Assembly (NCBI GenBank): GCA_017444825.1
Contig: JAFSVU010000027.1
Location: 1-64,000, forward strand
Source: Clostridia bacterium
GTDB lineage: Bacteria > Bacillota > Clostridia > UBA1212
DNA length: 64,000 nt
Direction of reading: 5' to 3'
The notes beneath the pieces are model-generated. The model was given only the letters and a program-made list of their open reading frames with translations, had not been told where the DNA came from and made no database searches. A program made the translations under genes and the position numbers. Of the stretch, positions 7,787 to 58,190 are shown in pieces; the first letter of the stretch is position 1, and every line of letters starts with the position of its first letter.

Positions 7787-9142
7787 ATGAAAATCACCAA
7801 TGACATCTATCATATTGGCGTAAACGACATGCAGATCGACCTTTTCGAGGGCCATTACACCGTCCCCGAGGGCATGGCGTACAACTCTTATGCGATCATT
7901 GACACAAAGATCGCCATCATGGACACCGTGGACAAAAAATTCACCCATGAGTGGCTGGATAACATCGCGGGGGTCATTGGCGCGAGAAAGCCGGACTATC
8001 TCGTCGTTCAGCACATGGAGCCCGATCATTCCGCAAACATTGTTCAGTTTATGAACGCATATCCGGGAGCGACGATCGTATCCTCCGCAAAAGCCTTCGT
8101 TATGATGAAGAATTTCTTCGGAAAGGAATACGAGGACAGACGCATTGTTATCAATGAGGGCTCGGAGCTTTCCCTCGGAAACCACACACTGAAATTCGTC
8201 GCAGCGCCAATGGTCCACTGGCCGGAGGTCATGATGACTTATGATGCTTACGAAAAGGTGTTTTTCTCTGCTGACGGCTTCGGCAAGTTCGGCGCAGTAA
8301 ACCTCGAAAACGTGTTCGAGGAAGAGGACTGGGATTGCGAGGCAAGACGCTATTATTTCGGTATCGTAGGCAAATACGGCGCACAGGTGCAGGCGATACT
8401 GAAGAAGGCCGCCACCCTTGAGATCGATATGATCTGCCCGCTCCACGGCCCTGTGCTGAAGGATGACCTTGGCCATTATATCAAGCAGTACGACACCTGG
8501 TCCTCCTACCGGGCGGAGACTGACGGCATACTCATCGCCTACACGTCCGTGTACGGGAATACGGAAAAAGCGGTCCTCAAGCTGGAGCAGAAACTGAAAG
8601 CCAACGGCTGTCCGAAGGTCTCGGTGGTTGACCTGGCAAGGTCCGACATTGCAGAGGCTGTGGAGGATGCATTCCGCTACACAAAGACTGTCTTTGCGAC
8701 CACCACTTTCAACACGGGCATATTCCCCTACATGCGTGAATTCATCGAGAGCCTCACCGAGAGAAACTACCAAAGCAGGACCGTCGCTTTCATTGAGAAC
8801 GGCTCATGGGCGCCCCTTGCCACCAAGGTGATGAAGGGAATGCTGGAAAACTCCAAGAATCTCGTATACTGCGAGAACAACGTTAAGATCCTCTCCGCAC
8901 TTAACGAGGAGTCCGAAAAGCAGCTGGACGCCCTTGCCGAGGAGCTTTGCCGTGAGTACATCGCAAGGAAGAGCGACTACGCCGACAAGAACGATATGAA
9001 GGCGCTGTTTAAGATAGGCTACGGCCTTTACGCTGTCACCTGCAACGACGGCACAAGGGACAATGCGCTCATCGTGAACACCGTCAGTCAGATCACCAGT
9101 TCGCCGAACCGCATTGCCGTATGCATCAACAAGCAGAACTAG
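7787..9142 (+). CDS. Flavodiiron protein, amber-truncated fusion (N-terminal part)
   Basis: A-type flavoprotein that reduces O2 to water and/or NO to N2O in anaerobes. Residues 1-240 are the metallo-beta-lactamase-like domain with diiron ligands in HMEPDH (76-81), His144, Asp163 and His220. Residues 246-390 are the flavodoxin domain with the FMN loop TSVYGNTEKA. From about 400 a flavin-reductase domain begins (IGYGLYAVTC, VSQITSSPNRIAV), but the frame meets TAG at 9140-9142 just after NKQN. The same frame continues after the stop with the rest of the flavin-reductase domain and a rubredoxin, so this is most likely the front of a 601-codon fusion broken by one amber codon. The core O2-reducing part would still be made. 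Confidence 0.9.
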   Translation: MKITNDIYHIGVNDMQIDLFEGHYTVPEGMAYNSYAIIDTKIAIMDTVDKKFTHEWLDNIAGVIGARKPDYLVVQHMEPDHSANIVQFMNAYPGATIVSSAKAFVMMKNFFGKEYEDRRIVINEGSELSLGNHTLKFVAAPMVHWPEVMMTYDAYEKVFFSADGFGKFGAVNLENVFEEEDWDCEARRYYFGIVGKYGAQVQAILKKAATLEIDMICPLHGPVLKDDLGHYIKQYDTWSSYRAETDGILIAYTSVYGNTEKAVLKLEQKLKANGCPKVSVVDLARSDIAEAVEDAFRYTKTVFATTTFNTGIFPYMREFIESLTERNYQSRTVAFIENGSWAPLATKVMKGMLENSKNLVYCENNVKILSALNEESEKQLDALAEELCREYIARKSDYADKNDMKALFKIGYGLYAVTCNDGTRDNALIVNTVSQITSSPNRIAVCINKQN

Positions 9143-9172: not shown

Positions 9173-9592
9173 ATGAATCTCTGCTGCCTGTCCGTGGACA
9201 CACCGTTTGACGTGTTCAAATCCTTTGGTTTCAGAAGCGGACGCAACGAGGACAAGTTTGAGGGCATGGACGAACCAAGGTCCGAAAACGGTCTCATATT
9301 CCTCTCCCGCTACATTAATGCGTTCATGTCTCTCAAAGTGGAGCAGTACGTCGATTTCGACACCCACGGAATGTTCATCTGCACCGTGACGGAGGCGAGG
9401 GTGATATCGAACCGGGAGACGATGACTTATTCTTACTACTTCGACCACGTCAAGCCGAAGCCGGAGACAGAGGGCAAGAAGGGCTTTGTCTGCAAGATCT
9501 GCGGATACGTTTACGAGGGCGACGAGCTGCCGGAGGATTTTGTATGCCCGCTGTGCAAGCACGGGGCCGCGGATTTCGAACCTGTTAAGTAA
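9173..9592 (+). CDS. Downstream half of the flavodiiron fusion: flavin-reductase end plus rubredoxin
   Basis: In the same frame as the flavodiiron gene. Coding homology starts right after the TAG at 9140-9142, reading SHHVITRTGVMNL, so the ATG at 9173 is an internal Met rather than a real start; it has no Shine-Dalgarno sequence. Residues 1-95 complete the flavin-reductase-like fold (LSVDTPFDVFKSFGF and so on). Residues 100-139 are a rubredoxin with both CxxC pairs (CKICGY and CPLCKH), which would relay electrons from NAD(P)H to the FMN/diiron core. Both halves are well preserved, pointing to a very recent nonsense change, a sequencing error or amber readthrough. Confidence 0.75.
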   Translation: MNLCCLSVDTPFDVFKSFGFRSGRNEDKFEGMDEPRSENGLIFLSRYINAFMSLKVEQYVDFDTHGMFICTVTEARVISNRETMTYSYYFDHVKPKPETEGKKGFVCKICGYVYEGDELPEDFVCPLCKHGAADFEPVK

Positions 9593-9733
9593 GAGCGGTG
9601 CCGGACAAGGTAATAGGTAATAGGTAAAAGGTAAGAAGTGGCTACGCCAAGGGGGTGCCGCATTGAGTTCAAGGGGTGCCGCCCAAAGTAATAAGTAAAA
9701 GGTAAAAAGTATTAGGTACATCGGGGGGCCCCC

Positions 9734-9805
9734 GTCGACCACATTTCATCGAGGAGCGATTCTTCACGAAGTGAAGCCAAGTGACGAGATGCAAGGTGCG
9801 AGACG
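9734..9805 (+). repeat. 72-bp hairpin block, copy 1
   Basis: Runs from GTCGACCACATTTCATC to GGTGCGAGACG. It contains the inverted repeat CTTCAC-GAA-GTGAAG. It is identical to the block at 9890-9961 and differs at two visible positions from the block at 33479-33550. A G/C palindrome (GGGGGGCCCCC) lies immediately upstream. Confidence 0.9.
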
Positions 9806-9889
9806 CAAGGGGGTGCCGCATTGAGTTCAAGGGGTGCCGCTCAAAGTAATAAGTAAAAGGTAAAAAGTATTAGGTACATCGGGGCCCCC

Positions 9890-9961
9890 GTCGACCACAT
9901 TTCATCGAGGAGCGATTCTTCACGAAGTGAAGCCAAGTGACGAGATGCAAGGTGCGAGACG
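9890..9961 (+). repeat. 72-bp hairpin block, copy 2
   Basis: Identical to copy 1, as part of the second tandem unit. The G/C palindrome before it is two bases shorter than in copy 1. Confidence 0.9.
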
Positions 9962-10083
9962 CAAGGGAGTGCCGCCCTAAGTAATAAGTAACAGGTAATA
10001 GGTAAAAGGTAAGAAATAAAAAGTAAGGTACAAGGTAACAAGTAAAAGGTGCGCTAATTTTAAAGAAAGAAGACATTACACTA

Positions 10084-10923
10084 ATGAAAAAGTATTTTTT
10101 AGTTGATTATGAAAACGTGGAAAGCTCGGGCCTTGAGGGGTTCGACAAGCTCTCCAAAGAAGACGTTGTGGAGGTGTTCTACACGGAAAAAGCAAACCGT
10201 GTGAGCATCGAGTTTTTGGAACTGTATCTGGCCCTTAAGGACAATGCTCCCAGGCTTATACTCACAAAAGTCGCCAAGGGCAACCAGGCTCTTGACATGC
10301 AGCTTTCAAGCTACCTCGGGAGCCTTGTGGCGGCCCAACAGAATGATGACTGCGCTTTTGTGATCGTCAGCAAGGACAAGGGCTACGGGGTCCTCCAGCA
10401 GTTCTGGAAAAAGAAAAGGCCGGACATATCGATCACTCAGCAAAGCGACCTGAAGTCCGCACAGGAGCCGAAATCTTCTGCTCAGGAGCCAAAGGAACCT
10501 GCAAAGGCCGACGAGGCATTGAATCCCGCTGAAACTGCGGAGAAAAAAGAAACTTCCGGGCAGAGAAACCCGTCCCGGAGGAAAAACAATCCGAAGACCA
10601 AGCCTTTGCCTGAGCAAAAGGACCAGCCGAAGCAGTCAAAGGAACTGCCTCCGCAGGACGGCGCTGATGCTTCCGAACCTGCGGCGAAGCCTGAGGCCCC
10701 CCAGAGTCCCTCAGAGGCCCGCACCCAGCTGAACAACCAGGTCATCACCATACTCAGCAAGGCAAAATGCGAGTCAAAGGAGATGGGAATCGTTGCATCT
10801 CTCGTGGTGAACAGCGTACCCGAGGCAAATCCGAAGACCGCAGTATACCGGGGACTGGTCAGCAAATTCGGTCAGAAAAAAGGGCTGGAGTTCTACAGAC
10901 TCATAAAGAGCTGCCTCCCGTAA
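10084..10923 (+). CDS. PIN-like domain protein with basic/acidic linker (279 aa)
   Basis: Residues 1-120 look like a PIN/NYN-type nuclease domain: FLVDYENVESSGL at the start carries the first acidic cluster, and FVIVSKDKGYGVL carries the later Asp of the metal site. Residues 121-218 are a low-complexity Pro/Lys/Glu/Ala linker, clearly disordered. Residues 219-279 form a small helical domain of unknown type (from QLNNQVITIL to the end). A function in RNA cleavage or binding is an inference from the fold only. The next gene starts 6 bp later, so the two are probably an operon. Its promoter is not obvious in the repeat-filled upstream region. Confidence 0.65.
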   Translation: MKKYFLVDYENVESSGLEGFDKLSKEDVVEVFYTEKANRVSIEFLELYLALKDNAPRLILTKVAKGNQALDMQLSSYLGSLVAAQQNDDCAFVIVSKDKGYGVLQQFWKKKRPDISITQQSDLKSAQEPKSSAQEPKEPAKADEALNPAETAEKKETSGQRNPSRRKNNPKTKPLPEQKDQPKQSKELPPQDGADASEPAAKPEAPQSPSEARTQLNNQVITILSKAKCESKEMGIVASLVVNSVPEANPKTAVYRGLVSKFGQKKGLEFYRLIKSCLP

Positions 10924-26480: not shown

Positions 26481-27581
26481 ATGAAAAAAGTATTGACCAT
26501 AGTATTGGCGACTGCCTTACTCTTTACTCTTGTCGCAGTACTGCCCGCTTTTGCGGAGACCGAGCAGCTGTGGGTAGACTTTGTGCGCGTTCTTGACTCT
26601 ACGGGTGCTCAGACAGGCGGCGACCTGGTGGCGGGCTTCGGAGCTCAGAATTTCAGTGACACACCGTTCTCTTCCGTGGGAGATATGTCGAAGATCAACG
26701 ACGCAACGTATCTCTTCATTGCAGGCTGGTATGCTCCGCTCAAAGAGATGGCTGATATCGGCTACAGAGTTGACGGCGGCGACGTGGTGTACGGTGATTT
26801 CTCATCATTCAGTCAGGAGACCCGTAACATAATTGCAGGCTGGCCGAATTTTGAAAATGCGGATTTTTACAAGAGCTTCGCAGTACCCGCGCCCCTGCAG
26901 GCAAATTACCATGAAATTGAACTTGTGGCTAAATTCACGGACGGCACAACAAAAGCCATTTATAAGGTTTCCTACAATTCACAGGTTTACAAAAACTACG
27001 AAGGCATACCTCACAACGCTCCTGACGCAACTGCCTGCTGGATAGGAAACCTGAATACAAACGGCCTTGAGTTCACGTTTTCATTCAAAACAGACGTTTC
27101 CTTCTACGCTATAGGCTTTAACACATTCTGGGGCTACCCCAATGCTCCTCTCAAGCTGGTCTTCGAGAGTGACGGACAGGTGGTTAAAGAGGTAGAGTTC
27201 ACAGCTTCAGCTGCAGGCGACGGCGCTCTTTACATTGATTTGGGCGGAATACTTCCCGCAGGTCAGTATGACGTGACCGCTTCCATCACCAGCGACAGAG
27301 TATGGCAGCCCGGTGACGCCGGATATCAGGATGCGCTGAGCGGATGCTACTACTACCATGCAGTGTTCGCCGGAGTTGACAAAGGTATAGCTCTTGACGC
27401 CGATTACTTCACATGCACAAAGGCTCCGATCGCTGTCGATCTTTACTCAACCGCTGTCGGCAGAGGCTTTGTCACGTTCGACACAACGCTCTCTCCTCAA
27501 ACTGCGGATGCTTCGATGATCATTTTCATCGTAGCGGCTGCCGCGATCGCACTTGTGATCCTCAAGAAAAAAGTTTTTTGA
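26481..27581 (+). CDS. Surface protein A: secreted, C-terminally anchored, unknown modules (366 aa)
   Basis: Function not recognised. Signal peptide 1-25 ends in AFA. Residues 29-170 form what I call the GWY module (AGWYAPLKEMADIGYRVDGG at 81-100, then ELVAKFTDGTTKAIYKV). Residues 176-337 form a second module with FKTDVSF, FWGYP and AGDGAL. Both recur in protein B, and GWY also recurs in protein C. The C-terminus is SPQTADAS (338-345), a hydrophobic helix (346-361) and KKK, resembling an LPXTG-like sorting signal. GGAGG lies 6-7 nt before the ATG. Possibly a beta-sandwich adhesin or glycan-binding protein (inference). Confidence 0.75.
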   Translation: MKKVLTIVLATALLFTLVAVLPAFAETEQLWVDFVRVLDSTGAQTGGDLVAGFGAQNFSDTPFSSVGDMSKINDATYLFIAGWYAPLKEMADIGYRVDGGDVVYGDFSSFSQETRNIIAGWPNFENADFYKSFAVPAPLQANYHEIELVAKFTDGTTKAIYKVSYNSQVYKNYEGIPHNAPDATACWIGNLNTNGLEFTFSFKTDVSFYAIGFNTFWGYPNAPLKLVFESDGQVVKEVEFTASAAGDGALYIDLGGILPAGQYDVTASITSDRVWQPGDAGYQDALSGCYYYHAVFAGVDKGIALDADYFTCTKAPIAVDLYSTAVGRGFVTFDTTLSPQTADASMIIFIVAAAAIALVILKKKVF

Positions 27582-27821: not shown

Positions 27822-29891
27822 ATGAAAAAACTGTTTGGAATGATCATAGTGGTCGCCGCATTGGTTATGCTTGTCACTATACTTCCTGCATTTGCGTCCA
27901 ATGAGATTATTAACGTGGATTGGGTCAAATGCACGAATGCGGAAGGCGGCGACGTAGCGGTTCTTGCACCGGCAAATGCTGTGCCGGACTTCGGAACGCT
28001 GCCACCCGGTGCGATCCTCGGAAACCTTCGTGATGAGGTCGCTGCAGGTGCTACAGATTTCAACATTGTTGCATGGTATATGCCCTGGAAGCCTATGGCT
28101 GACATCGGTCTTCGTATCGACGGCGGAGCTATCAGTTACGACGGCTACGGGTTTTTTAACCAGGATCTGGCTGACGCGATAGTAAGCCTTGCTATGGCTG
28201 ATGCCACTCAGGCGGGATACACTTTCAGGATCGATTTCAGCACTCCGATCCTTGAAGGCAACCACCTGATGGAACTGATCGCAAAATTTACCGACGGTGA
28301 AGAAAAGATAATATACCAGATGTATTACAGCAATTCCGTTGACGTGGCTCTCGGAAAACCTGTATCCGCTACCATCAGGGCTGTCCCGACAGGCGGCGCT
28401 CTCGTTTCCGATAACGTTTTCTGGAATCCGGCTTTTGCCGTAGACGGCTCGGCGATCGTTTTTGACGGAGCCACACAGGGACCTTTGGGACTTTATCTCT
28501 CCACGACTACAGCTGACGTTGACGGCTACCTGACTGTCGACCTCATGGGCACATACAAGCTCAGCTCTGTCGTTGTCGAGGCCATGGGCTTTAACAACAT
28601 CGCTTTCCCGAACACATACAAGGTTCAGGTCTCCAAGGACGGTGCCACCTGGAAGGATATCGGCGGCGAGACGGGCGTACAGCTCAACACCTTCGGCAAG
28701 TACAAAACCATCAACACCACCGAAGAAGCAAGATTCGTGAGAGTAAAGTTTGAAAAGTTCAATCTTCTCCAGGATGGTAATGGTATTTACTATGGTGGGA
28801 TCGGCGAACTGGAAGTTTTCGGAACTCTGATCTCTGCACCGGCGAGCAGATCTATCCTGACGCCTTACACAAACTACACTGCGGGAACGGCGGCTACCGG
28901 CGATACAGGCGGAAATTCCGCATGGTTCGGTTTCTCGACAGGTGACCTTGATTATGCCTTTACATTCAAGACAGACGTTTCGTTCACATCCATCGGTTTA
29001 CCCGGATTCTGGTCGGCTCCCGGAACTCCTCTCACCATTGAGTTCATAAGCAACGGACAGACCGTGCACACCATGAATTACACGACGGCAGGTGACGGAG
29101 CTATCATCCTTGAGCTTGGCAAAGCTCTCCCCAGAGGTCTCTACGACGTCATATTTACCATCAACGACGAAACCATCGACCAGGGCACCGGATATTACAC
29201 CAAGTACACTGTCCTCGGATATGCTACCGACGGTACTCTTAACAACAGTGACTATTTCTATTTCGAGCGCGGAAACGTGGCTCTGGATCTCTACTCTGCG
29301 GATGAAGGGCTCGGATTCGTTCCTCTTGACTACCATTATCCCGAGCGCCGCGATTTCAGCAGCGACGCAGGAGACAGTCTCTCCTACGACCAGATCATTG
29401 TGGACGGCCAGATAGTTGCTGAGGGCAATGACGTCGTGATCGAAACCAAGAAGGCAGGTATTGACGGACGTGACGGAAGCGTTTCCAAGATAGCTCTTTA
29501 CGGCTGGTACGGAAACTCAAATCAGACCACCGCTCAGCTGGGCTACCAGATCAACGGCGGCAGGATCGTCTGGGGCGACTTCTTCATCGACACAGAATCC
29601 GCTGTAACCTCTCTCGGAGCCAACAACCGCAGATTCAAGATTGAATTTGACGTGTCCAATCTGAAGGGCGATAACAACGTCATCTGGGTATGGGCTAAGC
29701 TGGAAAACGGCGACGAGGTCAAACTCAACAGATATGACCGCACCGCGTCAGGCGACAAGGACAGAGAGATCTACGTTACATACAACGGAGTTCCAGGCGT
29801 GAATGCTCCTACGGCAGATGCATCGATGGTCATATTCATCGTTGCCGCTGCGGCTGTGGCACTCGCTGTTCTTAAGAAAAAAGTTTTTTGA
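27822..29891 (+). CDS. Surface protein B: secreted, discoidin domain plus GWY modules (689 aa)
   Basis: Paralogue of the preceding gene with extra domains. Signal peptide 1-25. GWY module 28-170 (VAWYMPWKPMADIGLRIDGG). An F5/8 type C (discoidin) carbohydrate-binding domain lies at 174-335 (VALGKPVSAT, AFAVDG, YKVQVSKDGATWKDIG, RFVRVKF). The FKTDVSF module is at 343-505, and a second GWY copy at 520-656 (YGWYGNSNQTTAQLGYQINGG). The C-terminus is NAPTADAS (661-668), a hydrophobic helix and KKK, almost identical to protein A. The discoidin domain supports binding of polysaccharide or host glycan at the cell surface; the rest is unrecognised. The two genes have separate terminators, so they arose by duplication but are transcribed apart. 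Confidence 0.78.
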   Translation: MKKLFGMIIVVAALVMLVTILPAFASNEIINVDWVKCTNAEGGDVAVLAPANAVPDFGTLPPGAILGNLRDEVAAGATDFNIVAWYMPWKPMADIGLRIDGGAISYDGYGFFNQDLADAIVSLAMADATQAGYTFRIDFSTPILEGNHLMELIAKFTDGEEKIIYQMYYSNSVDVALGKPVSATIRAVPTGGALVSDNVFWNPAFAVDGSAIVFDGATQGPLGLYLSTTTADVDGYLTVDLMGTYKLSSVVVEAMGFNNIAFPNTYKVQVSKDGATWKDIGGETGVQLNTFGKYKTINTTEEARFVRVKFEKFNLLQDGNGIYYGGIGELEVFGTLISAPASRSILTPYTNYTAGTAATGDTGGNSAWFGFSTGDLDYAFTFKTDVSFTSIGLPGFWSAPGTPLTIEFISNGQTVHTMNYTTAGDGAIILELGKALPRGLYDVIFTINDETIDQGTGYYTKYTVLGYATDGTLNNSDYFYFERGNVALDLYSADEGLGFVPLDYHYPERRDFSSDAGDSLSYDQIIVDGQIVAEGNDVVIETKKAGIDGRDGSVSKIALYGWYGNSNQTTAQLGYQINGGRIVWGDFFIDTESAVTSLGANNRRFKIEFDVSNLKGDNNVIWVWAKLENGDEVKLNRYDRTASGDKDREIYVTYNGVPGVNAPTADASMVIFIVAAAAVALAVLKKKVF

Positions 29892-30594: not shown

Positions 30595-32676
30595 ATGTTT
30601 AAAACTTTCACAACAGAGCTTGCGGGCAGAAGACTTACGATAGAGACAGGTAAGATGGCCCAGCTGGCAAACGGCGCGGTTTTGGTAAGGTACGGAGATA
30701 CGGTGGTTATTTCCACAGTTACCGCGTCAAAGACCCCGAGAGACGGCGTGGATTTCTTTCCCCTCAGCGTTGATTACGAGGAGAAGCTCTACTCCGTCGG
30801 AAAGATCCCGGGCGGATTCCTTAAGAGAGAGGGCAAACCTTCCGAGAAGGCCATACTCACGTCGAGAGTTATCGACAGACCTATCAGGCCTCTTTTCCCG
30901 AAGGACCTCAGAAACGACGTCGCAGTCATCAATACCGTTCTTTCGGTGGAGCAGGACAATTCTCCTGAGATCGCCGCTATGATCGGAACCTCCTGCGCTA
31001 TCTCCATCTCCGATATTCCTTTCAACGGACCTATCGGCGGTGTTGTGCTGGGACTGGTTGACGGCGAAGTGGTCATTAACCCCACGTCGAAGCAACGCGA
31101 AAAGAGCGATATGTACGTCACCCTCGCAGGAACCAAGGAAAAGATCACCATGGTGGAAGCAGGCGCCAATGAAGTCCCCGAGAACGTGATGCTGAACGCC
31201 ATCATCAAGGGACACGGCACCATCAAGAAGATCTGCGAATTCATCGAAGGCATCGTGGCGGAAGTCGGAAAACCGAAGTTCTCCTACACATCCTGCGAAG
31301 TGCCCCACGACCTCTTTGAGGATGTGGAAGCCATCGCCCTTGACACAATGAAACAGGCAGTCCTTGCAGTCGATAAGACTGTGCGAGATAACGCCATTGA
31401 CGCTCTCACGGCAGACGTTCAGAGCAAGCTGGCTGAAAAGTATCCCGACAGCAAGTCCGTGATCAACGAAGCTATCTACAAGCTCGAGAAGAAAGTCGTC
31501 AGGAACTACCTCCTCAAGGAGCACAAGAGAGTTGACGGCAGAGCCCTTGACGAGATCAGACCTCTTTCGGCAGAGATCGACATTCTTCCGAGAGTACACG
31601 GCTCAGGTCTTTTCACAAGAGGCCAGACACAAGTCCTCACTATCTGCACCCTTGGTCAGATATCCGAGTACCAGATCCTCGACGGCATCGATGAGGAAGA
31701 CAAGAAGCGCTACATCCATCAGTACAACTTCCCGGGCTACAGCGTAGGCGAAGCCAAGTCCATCAAATCTCCCGGCAGACGTGAGATAGGCCACGGCGCC
31801 CTCGCAGAGAGAGCTCTCGTTCCGGTAATTCCTTCCGAGGAAGAGTTCCCTTATACGTTAAGGCTCGTTTCCGAAGTTCTTTCGTCCAACGGTTCCACAT
31901 CCCAGGGCAGTGTATGCGGCTCCACCCTTGCGCTTATGGCAGCAGGCGTTCCGATCAAGGCTCCCGTTGCAGGTATCTCCTGCGGTCTCGTAACCAATCC
32001 CGATGACGAGAACGACTTCATCACGTTCATGGACATCCAGGGCATCGAGGACTTCTTTGGCGATATGGACTTTAAGGTCGCAGGTACCGAAAAAGGCATC
32101 ACCGCCATCCAGGTGGACATCAAAGTTCAGGGTCTCTCCTACGAAGTCATCCGCCAGGCATTTGAGCTCACCCGCAAGGGTCGTATGAAGATCCTCAACG
32201 AAATCATTCTCCCCTGCATCCCTGAGCCCAGAAAACAGGTATCCAAGTACGCTCCGAAGATATTCCAGATGCAGATCCCCGTTGACAAGATCCGCGACGT
32301 GATCGGCTCCGGCGGAAAGACCATCAACAAGATCATCGAAGCAACAGGCGTAAAGATCGATATCGAAGAGGACGGCAGAATTTTCATCGCCACACCCGAA
32401 GAGGAACTGGCTGAAAAGACAATGAAGATCATCAACGGCATCATCGGAAACCTCGAGGTCGGCGAAGTGTTTGAAGGCCGCGTAACAAGGCTCATGAACT
32501 TCGGTGCATTCGTCGAGTTCCTGCCCGGCGTTGAAGGACTTGTACACATCTCCAAACTCGCCAAGTACCGCGTTGAGCGCGTAGAGGACGTGGTTGCGGA
32601 AGGCGACACCGTCAAAGTCAAGTTCATTGGTTACGACAAGATGGGCAGAGTTGATCTTTCGATCAAGGATGTTTGA
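30595..32676 (+). CDS. pnp: Polyribonucleotide nucleotidyltransferase (PNPase)
   Basis: Phosphorolytic 3'-5' exoribonuclease of mRNA decay. Two RNase PH-like halves are present: the first carries FFPLSVDYEEKLYSVGKIPGG and ILTSRVIDRPIRPLFP, the second carries GQTQVL, YNFPGYSVGE, GRREIGHGALAERAL and SNGSTSQGSVCG. A KH domain (VIGSGGKTINKI, about 560-610) and an S1 domain (RVTRLMNFGAFVEFLPGVEGL, about 622-690) follow. 693 aa, full length. The ribosome-binding site is weak (AGAG just before the ATG), and the leader contains hairpins, as in other pnp genes that control themselves. Confidence 0.97.
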   Translation: MFKTFTTELAGRRLTIETGKMAQLANGAVLVRYGDTVVISTVTASKTPRDGVDFFPLSVDYEEKLYSVGKIPGGFLKREGKPSEKAILTSRVIDRPIRPLFPKDLRNDVAVINTVLSVEQDNSPEIAAMIGTSCAISISDIPFNGPIGGVVLGLVDGEVVINPTSKQREKSDMYVTLAGTKEKITMVEAGANEVPENVMLNAIIKGHGTIKKICEFIEGIVAEVGKPKFSYTSCEVPHDLFEDVEAIALDTMKQAVLAVDKTVRDNAIDALTADVQSKLAEKYPDSKSVINEAIYKLEKKVVRNYLLKEHKRVDGRALDEIRPLSAEIDILPRVHGSGLFTRGQTQVLTICTLGQISEYQILDGIDEEDKKRYIHQYNFPGYSVGEAKSIKSPGRREIGHGALAERALVPVIPSEEEFPYTLRLVSEVLSSNGSTSQGSVCGSTLALMAAGVPIKAPVAGISCGLVTNPDDENDFITFMDIQGIEDFFGDMDFKVAGTEKGITAIQVDIKVQGLSYEVIRQAFELTRKGRMKILNEIILPCIPEPRKQVSKYAPKIFQMQIPVDKIRDVIGSGGKTINKIIEATGVKIDIEEDGRIFIATPEEELAEKTMKIINGIIGNLEVGEVFEGRVTRLMNFGAFVEFLPGVEGLVHISKLAKYRVERVEDVVAEGDTVKVKFIGYDKMGRVDLSIKDV

Positions 32677-32691
32677 CAGGCAACTGCCGTT

Positions 32692-32790
32692 AAGGGGTAC
32701 CGCTTGGGCAGAAGGGAGTGCCGCCCAAAGTAATAAGTGCTAAGTAATAGGTGCTAAAGCGCTAAGTAAAAAAGGTGCTGAGTGCCGGGG
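32692..32790 (+). repeat. Dispersed repeat: GTGCCGC box with 7-bp and GTGCTAA tracts
   Basis: After pnp, GGGGTACCGC and GGGAGTGCCGCCCAAAGTAATAAG are followed by variants of the periodic unit in which GTGCTAA and AGTAATA alternate. It belongs to the family seen at 9.6-10.05 kb, without the 72-bp hairpin block. Confidence 0.75.
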
Positions 32791-32854: not shown

Positions 32855-33406
32855 ATGATAGATCTGCTTTCGCTCCATAAACAGTTTATAAAAGATCACC
32901 TGAGGGAGGGCGACGTCTGTGCGGACTTTACAATGGGCAACGGCTACGACACCGTATTCCTCTCGCAAATCGTGGGAGAAAAAGGACACGTCTATGCCTT
33001 CGACGTTCAGCAGCAGGCCCTGGACAACACGAAAAAAAGACTCGAGGACACAGGCTGCCCGGACAACGTGACACTGATACTCGATTCACATTCAAATGCC
33101 GCAAGCTACATTAAAACGAAGATCAAAGCGGGCATGTTCAACCTGGGCTGGCTCCCGGGGAGTGACAGGAAGGTTACAACTATGAGGGCGACGACGCTCC
33201 CCGCGGTGGAGACCGCCATCAGTCTTCTTGACAAAGACTCGGTCCTTACGATAGCGATATATCCGGGCCACGAGGAGGGGGATGCGGAGGGAAAGATGCT
33301 TGAAGAGTATTTTTCGACACTGTCCCGGTTCGAGATATGCGCGACAAAGGTCAGGATCGTAAATTCCGGGGCCGCGCCTTATTTCTTTGTTTTGGAAACC
33401 AAGTGA
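32855..33406 (+). CDS. mnmM: MnmM (YtqB)-like tRNA wobble-uridine methyltransferase
   Basis: Class I SAM-dependent methyltransferase, 183 aa. The SAM motif is ADFTMGNGYDTVFL and the acidic residue of strand 2 is in VYAFDVQQQAL. FNLGWLPGSDRKVTT and AIYPGHEEGDAEGKML are characteristic of the YtqB/MnmM group, which methylates 5-aminomethyl-2-thiouridine at tRNA position 34 (recalled family knowledge). The last codons and the TGA stop (33404-33406) lie inside a partial copy of the dispersed hairpin block, so the native C-terminus may have been replaced or trimmed when the repeat arrived. Confidence 0.85.
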   Translation: MIDLLSLHKQFIKDHLREGDVCADFTMGNGYDTVFLSQIVGEKGHVYAFDVQQQALDNTKKRLEDTGCPDNVTLILDSHSNAASYIKTKIKAGMFNLGWLPGSDRKVTTMRATTLPAVETAISLLDKDSVLTIAIYPGHEEGDAEGKMLEEYFSTLSRFEICATKVRIVNSGAAPYFFVLETK

Positions 33407-33550
33407 CGAGATGCAATGTGCGAGACGTAAGGGGTGCCGCTCAGGTAATAAGTAACAGGTAAAAGGTAAGAGGTGGCCGTCGACCACATTTCATCGAGGA
33501 ACGATTCTTCACGAAGTGAAGCCAAGTGACGAGATGCAATGTGCGAGACG
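33399..33550 (+). repeat. Dispersed repeat: partial plus full hairpin block with 7-bp tract
   Basis: 33399-33427 is a 29-bp partial copy of the hairpin block (its 3' end, CCAAGTGACGAGATGCAATG onward). A GGGGTGCCGCTCA box and a tract of RGTAAWA units follow. 33479-33550 is a full 72-bp block that differs from the 9.7-9.96 kb copies by GAACG for GAGCG and CAATGT for CAAGGT. The promoter of surface protein C starts 10 bp further on. Confidence 0.9.
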
Positions 33551-33559
33551 GGGCCGCCC

Positions 33560-58064: not shown

Positions 58065-58190
58065 GATGCTTATTACCTCTTACCTTTTACTTATTACTTG
58101 AGCGGAACTCCTTGCATTTCACCAATTACCTCTTACCTAATACCTATTACCTTGAGCGGCACCCCCTTTTACCCAAGGCGGCCCACCCTT
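58065..58190 (-). repeat. Dispersed repeat, inverted orientation
   Basis: Read on the minus strand it contains GGGGGTGCCGCTCAAGGTAATAGG, a long RGTAAWA-type 7-bp tract, and a second GTTCCGCTCAAGTAATAAG box. It lacks the 72-bp block, although a short GAAATGCAAGG remnant lies in the middle. It fills the gap between the amidohydrolase and the frr promoter. Confidence 0.85.

Follow-up and report, generated by a model that had tools for sequence, protein, structure and literature searches.

Stop-codon-anchored mosaic repeat arrays with 7-bp tracts in one Clostridia species

The gap behind a rubredoxin-type gene was found to contain two nearly identical neighbouring repeat units, and the locus raises the question of what kind of repeat they represent. 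They were found to belong to a family that has spread to about a hundred places in this one Clostridia species of gut type. The family is a known kind of bacterial repeat and its stop-codon rule is the unusual part; anchoring at stop codons in the sense orientation is its most regular feature, which was overlooked in the sequence-only reading of the locus.

In the window (the whole analysed stretch of 64,000 nucleotides), the 3′ part of the upstream gene (9173-9592, forward strand, from the ORF list) encoded a rubredoxin-type C-terminus equal in length to that of the congener ortholog, and its TAA stop (9590-9592) was the anchor of the array. Module 1 (9595-9640, forward; sequence, repeat family D1) contained the box GCGGTGCCGGAC 3 bp past the stop followed by a heptad tract, and two tandem units of 156-158 bp, about 97% identical to each other, came next. 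Each unit was found to contain GTGCCGC boxes, an RGTAANA heptad tract and an imperfect palindrome of about 70 bp, the core. Unit 1 (9648-9805, forward) contained boxes at 9652-9661 and 9673-9682, followed by the tract at about 9683-9719 and the core at about 9734-9804. Unit 2 (9806-9961, forward), a tandem duplicate of unit 1, contained boxes at 9810-9819 and 9831-9840, followed by the tract at about 9841-9876 and the core at about 9890-9960. Module 3 (9965-10050, forward) contained a box at 9966-9976 followed by a long heptad tract and stopped about 34 bp short of the following gene (10084). Tandem Repeats Finder described 9648-9975 as 2.1 copies of period 156 with 97% matches, and the tract flanking the two units was present at 9607-9640 and 9980-10050. 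The boxes, the 7-bp tract, the flanking tract and the near-identical units noticed at first were all recovered, the unit limits lying about 3 bp to the left of those first given (9651-9808 and 9809-9964).

The pattern of box and tract occurred five times in the window against none expected from shuffles. The second array (32694-32788, forward) had no core and followed a gene ending near 32672. The third array (33395-33554, forward) contained a partial core followed by a box, a tract and a full core, and the CAAGTGA of the partial core provided the TGA stop of the upstream gene. The fourth array (58069-58165, reverse) contained a box and a tract. Two listed ORFs (9841-10041 and 9870-10076, both reverse) were antisense readings of the first array (LLFISYLLPITCYLLL and similar) and would probably enter annotations as spurious proteins. 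Upstream of that array an in-frame TAG (9140-9142, forward) separated a flavoprotein (7787-9139) from the C-terminal part that continues it (9173-9592). The closest named relatives by this flavoprotein were the MAGs Mageeibacillus sp. UBA1243 and Clostridia RGIG10266 (yak rumen), both of which contained a tyrosine codon (TAC, TAT) at the TAG site; the TAG is a nonsense mutation, a sequencing error or a recoding.

The G/C palindrome noticed at first was present in both window units (GGGGCCCC), although it was only a local variant, other copies containing GGGCCCACG or GGGCCAACG. The 72-bp block that had been called a hairpin folded no better than its shuffles (z -0.54), which leaves a strong RNA hairpin in the core unsupported. 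In an alignment of 22 copies a 20-pair stem was kept and only one pair covaried (T-A to G-C). No match was found in Rfam (cmscan of 9400-10200, E<=1), nor in the plasmids and phages searched with the core.

The genome that contains the window is a 2.45-Mb draft of 56 contigs, and it was found to contain 103 matches of the unit at E<=0.001 and about 38 near-complete cores, 90-100% identical and set in many contexts. For the exact pattern GTGCCG-N(2-8)-RGTAAYARGTAA there were 325 matches, of which 151 were forward and 174 reverse, against none for the reversed control. The 74 arrays examined with their flanks, perhaps half of all, were 50-450 bp long (median 182 bp), the longest, of 448 bp, being that of the two window units. 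The arrays were mosaic, and the modules inside any one array all faced the same way. Box spacings formed a 7-bp ladder (20, 27, 34, 41, 48, 55 and 62), which indirectly supports the slippage of tracts proposed at first. Composite units of 33-34 and about 156-165 bp were tandemly duplicated at several loci.

The family is, by sequence comparison, lineage-specific and restricted to one species among the genomes compared. The unit was found in none of 38 relatives, and the pattern of box and tract was absent from the order's 30 other genomes, of which five are congeners. In congener G003 (1.49 Mb covered), detailed alignment of four orthologous gene junctions showed no array at any of them, and past the rubredoxin gene the alignment to both named relatives ended by window base 9591. 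A search of IMG/VR gave one scattered pattern match in each of 37 contigs, which were taken as chance. Mapping across the genome showed that the units are neither confined to the first locus nor a single-copy feature, and with the cores, the modules, the array-free congener sites and the tandem duplications the word amplifying in the sequence-only reading is supported. Its proposal of a small non-autonomous mobile or amplifying element is supported in that part; mobility is no more than a candidate property, array ends being variable and Y1_Tnp/RAYT absent.

The position of the arrays was followed with gene calls from a simple hexamer-scored script. A co-oriented gene lay on the 5′ side in 63 of the 70 sampled arrays and an opposite-strand upstream call was made in seven. 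The stop codon of that upstream gene lay inside the array or within 25 bp of its start in 56/70, against 10% for random placement in the same gaps; a gene that runs into a sense tract ends there by definition, since sense tracts contain stops, and the count is inflated in this way where an array begins ahead of the stop. About 40 arrays started after an intact stop, and the gene downstream lay on either strand at widely varying distance. Convergent gaps are the cleanest test of position because both neighbouring genes end there, and in these the array started at the sense stop in 20/22 whereas the far end lay near the opposing stop in only 3/22.

Many junctions read ...GTT TGA GGGGTGCCGC or ...GTT TAA GGGG and were identical to the internal links of the arrays. 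The last codon before the stop was xTT, as in the GTT-TGA link, in 15/59 array genes against 16/192 other genes (p=0.001). Stops were carried by the box links (GTTTGAGGGG and GTTAAAGGGG) as well as by the tracts, in which TAA recurs every 7 bp and therefore falls in all three frames. All 73 arrays scored closed all three frames in the sense direction, at a median of 29 nt, and 47/73 left at least one frame open in the antisense direction. Most of the 36 proteins that could be compared with congener orthologs ended within about 3 residues of the ortholog's end; several carried a short array-encoded tail (for example ...GSAAQVISNR*), and in some the array supplied the stop. The arrays alter a few protein C-termini, and they produce spurious antisense ORFs in annotation.

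Plain RGTAANA tracts were found in 8/391 genomes of a class sample and 7/398 genomes of a phylum sample, this genome included in both. The motif as such is not special, the reversed motif being present in about ten genomes of the class sample. Outside this genome a sense-ORF stop (ORFs of at least 100 aa) lay near the tract start in 23/39 tracts, against 3/39 in the mirror-image antisense test. The richest genome after this one was G043, with 30 overlapping matches; its loci L366-L380 and L330 contained many plain RGTRANA tracts starting at stop codons, some of them face to face at convergent gene ends. A second widespread heptad family, AATGGAC/AATGAAT, was observed in G204 (L411-L427) and G503 (L428-L430), often 10-50 bp past a sense stop. 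Among the control AATGRAN tracts, AATGGAC tracts, which contain no stop on either strand, lay at stops in 7/17 sense against 0/17 antisense tests, and stop-containing AATGAA tracts in 8/18 against 2/18. The sense lean towards gene 3′ ends is therefore wider than the stop-containing heptads, and the suggestion that stops alone explain position was weakened by it; a purine-rich coding strand or the direction of transcription may influence position besides stop codons. The AATGRAN tracts mostly lay at larger distances from stops than RGTAANA, and close abutment to stops is strongest for RGTAANA and for the mosaic family.

The reading preferred here, with a probability of about 0.55, is a species-specific mosaic family at gene 3′ ends, similar to STAR, BOX and STRR, which would have grown by heptad slippage and tandem duplication and been dispersed by a copying step. 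The analysis has demonstrated dispersal, lineage restriction, one-way modules, anchoring, between-locus variation in heptad steps and local tandem duplication. As to mechanism, arrays would be tolerated, and perhaps founded, at stop codons, probably since a copy in the sense orientation either preserves the existing stop or brings a new one, so that the protein hardly changes. Arrays would then lengthen by slippage of whole heptads, and unequal recombination would yield the tandem copies of 33-34 and about 156-165 bp units. New stop codons may be reached by copying between short matches (AGTAA, GTTTGA and AAGTGA) or through a putative enzyme. A host function would not be needed, and effects on mRNA 3′ ends or on rearrangement would be secondary.

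A bolder proposal, which we regard as rather unlikely, is that heptad repeats in Clostridia both originate and land at stop codons, RG-TAA-NA at a gene end duplicating or receiving copies in register and in the sense orientation, and that in this species the process became a genome-wide copying system carrying the G-rich box and the palindrome from stop to stop. If true, it would represent transposon-free spreading with gene 3′ ends as the target. A search of the accessible literature for heptads placed behind clostridial stop codons gave no match, which is a weak negative. How short intergenic repeats spread without a known transposase is an old open question in the STAR, TAACTGA and CGTC-REP papers, and this family, with its hundreds of modules in a single species, its absence from the congeners and its sharp rule of position, offers a concrete place to study it.

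Among the known systems, STAR elements of Staphylococcus are described as interspersed intergenic direct repeats with a short GC-rich motif and longer recurring spacers, a copy number that differs from locus to locus, sites peculiar to the species, a 'start signature' at one of their ends, and an origin and spreading mechanism that are unknown (PMC3532100). The present family likewise was found to contain GC-rich direct repeats, recurring spacers, variable number and species-specific loci. However, the 14-bp STAR motif TDTGTTGKGGCCCM gave one two-mismatch match in the window against 3.06 expected, outside the array, and the consulted text of the STAR paper contains no description of a heptad tract or palindromic core and no mention of stop-codon anchoring (PMC3532100). 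The TAACTGA heptamers of Beggiatoaceae, cyanobacteria and Bacteroidetes are abundant intergenic 7-bp direct repeats with sense stops, an open reverse frame, patchy distribution and 7-bp length differences (PMC4679880). All of these traits are common to both families, but no TAACTGA direct repeats were matched; in the Guaymas Beggiatoa they lie mostly just upstream of start codons, in contrast to the position just after stops seen here, and boxes or a core are not described for them (PMC4679880).

BOX elements of Streptococcus pneumoniae are intergenic, consist of terminal modules with a varying number of internal ones and are over-represented between convergent genes (PMC3049150). They resemble the present family, by description and not by sequence, as a modular intergenic mosaic, and differ in their defined boxA/boxC ends, the order boxA-(boxB)n-boxC and MITE features (PMC3049150). 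REP/BIME are short palindromic repeats of high copy in mosaic clusters, with RAYT transposases (PMC3733652). Short palindromes, high copy and mosaic clusters were also found here, but without a RAYT gene and with the core placed inside arrays of other modules in a single orientation. Since its sequence agreed with neither STAR nor TAACTGA and the RAYT enzyme of the REP system was absent, the family was filed under none of these. The STRR/LTRR of heterocystous cyanobacteria are 7-bp tandem repeats and longer repeats in intergenic DNA; their sequences and phylum are other than those of the present family, and they serve as a lead only. Integron-like attC arrays, an analogy only, were set aside, the arrays following scattered chromosomal genes, many of them in conserved order.

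Of the rival explanations, the strongest, though we consider it doubtful, is a transposable element of the non-autonomous kind (MITE- or REP-like) that a transposase would move in trans, recognising the palindromic core as an end and preferring targets that include stop codons. The many cores of high identity in differing contexts, the conserved palindrome, the array-free orthologous sites in the congener and the box-tract-core stretches shared by distant loci at 94-97% identity are consistent with it. However, array ends were variable across loci, most box and tract modules had no core, only the single pair covaried, and in unrelated genomes plain tracts with neither core nor boxes show the same lean. 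No target duplications were seen, the intergenic DNA of G003, L074 and L075 having diverged too far for them to be read. A Y1_Tnp/RAYT gene (PF01797, IS200/IS605-like Y1 transposase) gave no match in this genome and was detected in 5/14 control genomes, which excludes the REP mechanism alone; a trans-acting transposase of another family is possible.

An improbable alternative is a host-maintained 3′-UTR element, the sense RNA of which would act on termination, mRNA decay or ribosome release (through the three-frame stops) or bind a protein. The arrays are probably co-transcribed, because they are sense-oriented at gene ends, they close all frames, and terminator-like hairpins followed 12/72 arrays against 14/400 random stretches. 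But the same genes in congeners had no arrays, module order and length varied, the upstream genes were functionally unrelated, and neither Rfam nor the fold of the core spoke for a structured RNA.

It is very improbable that the arrays act mainly as hot spots of recombination and owe their value or origin to rearrangement of the genome. Synteny with G003 was lost at 8/20 gaps with arrays and at 5/44 control gaps (p=0.016), but this is suggestive only, because the controls include operons, which keep order, and contigs end unusually often at cores (16% of cores within 700 bp of an end against 2% expected), so that false joins are possible; a segment flanked by two arrays was also found on C49. 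An assembly or binning artefact, to which the draft state and these contig ends could point, is hardly credible, since the modules, in their hundreds, are spread over many contigs and border on differing unique sequence and orthologous neighbours.

Around the two clear reverse-transcriptase genes, the types of which were assigned by reading translations, no box and tract sequence was found up to a distance of 1.5 kb. One (L313, contig C29 at about 20.6 kb) was a reverse transcriptase of group II intron type, and the other (L314, contig C36 at about 49.4 kb) adjoined a protein ending SSYGVRLCYRPLSA and resembles a diversity-generating retroelement together with its variable protein. In the window, two gene ends (27496-27581 and 29806-29891, both forward) were found to be 78% identical and to encode a C-terminal membrane tail of the ...ADASMIIFIVAAAAIALVILKKKVF type, which from its sequence appears to resemble a surface-protein sorting signal.
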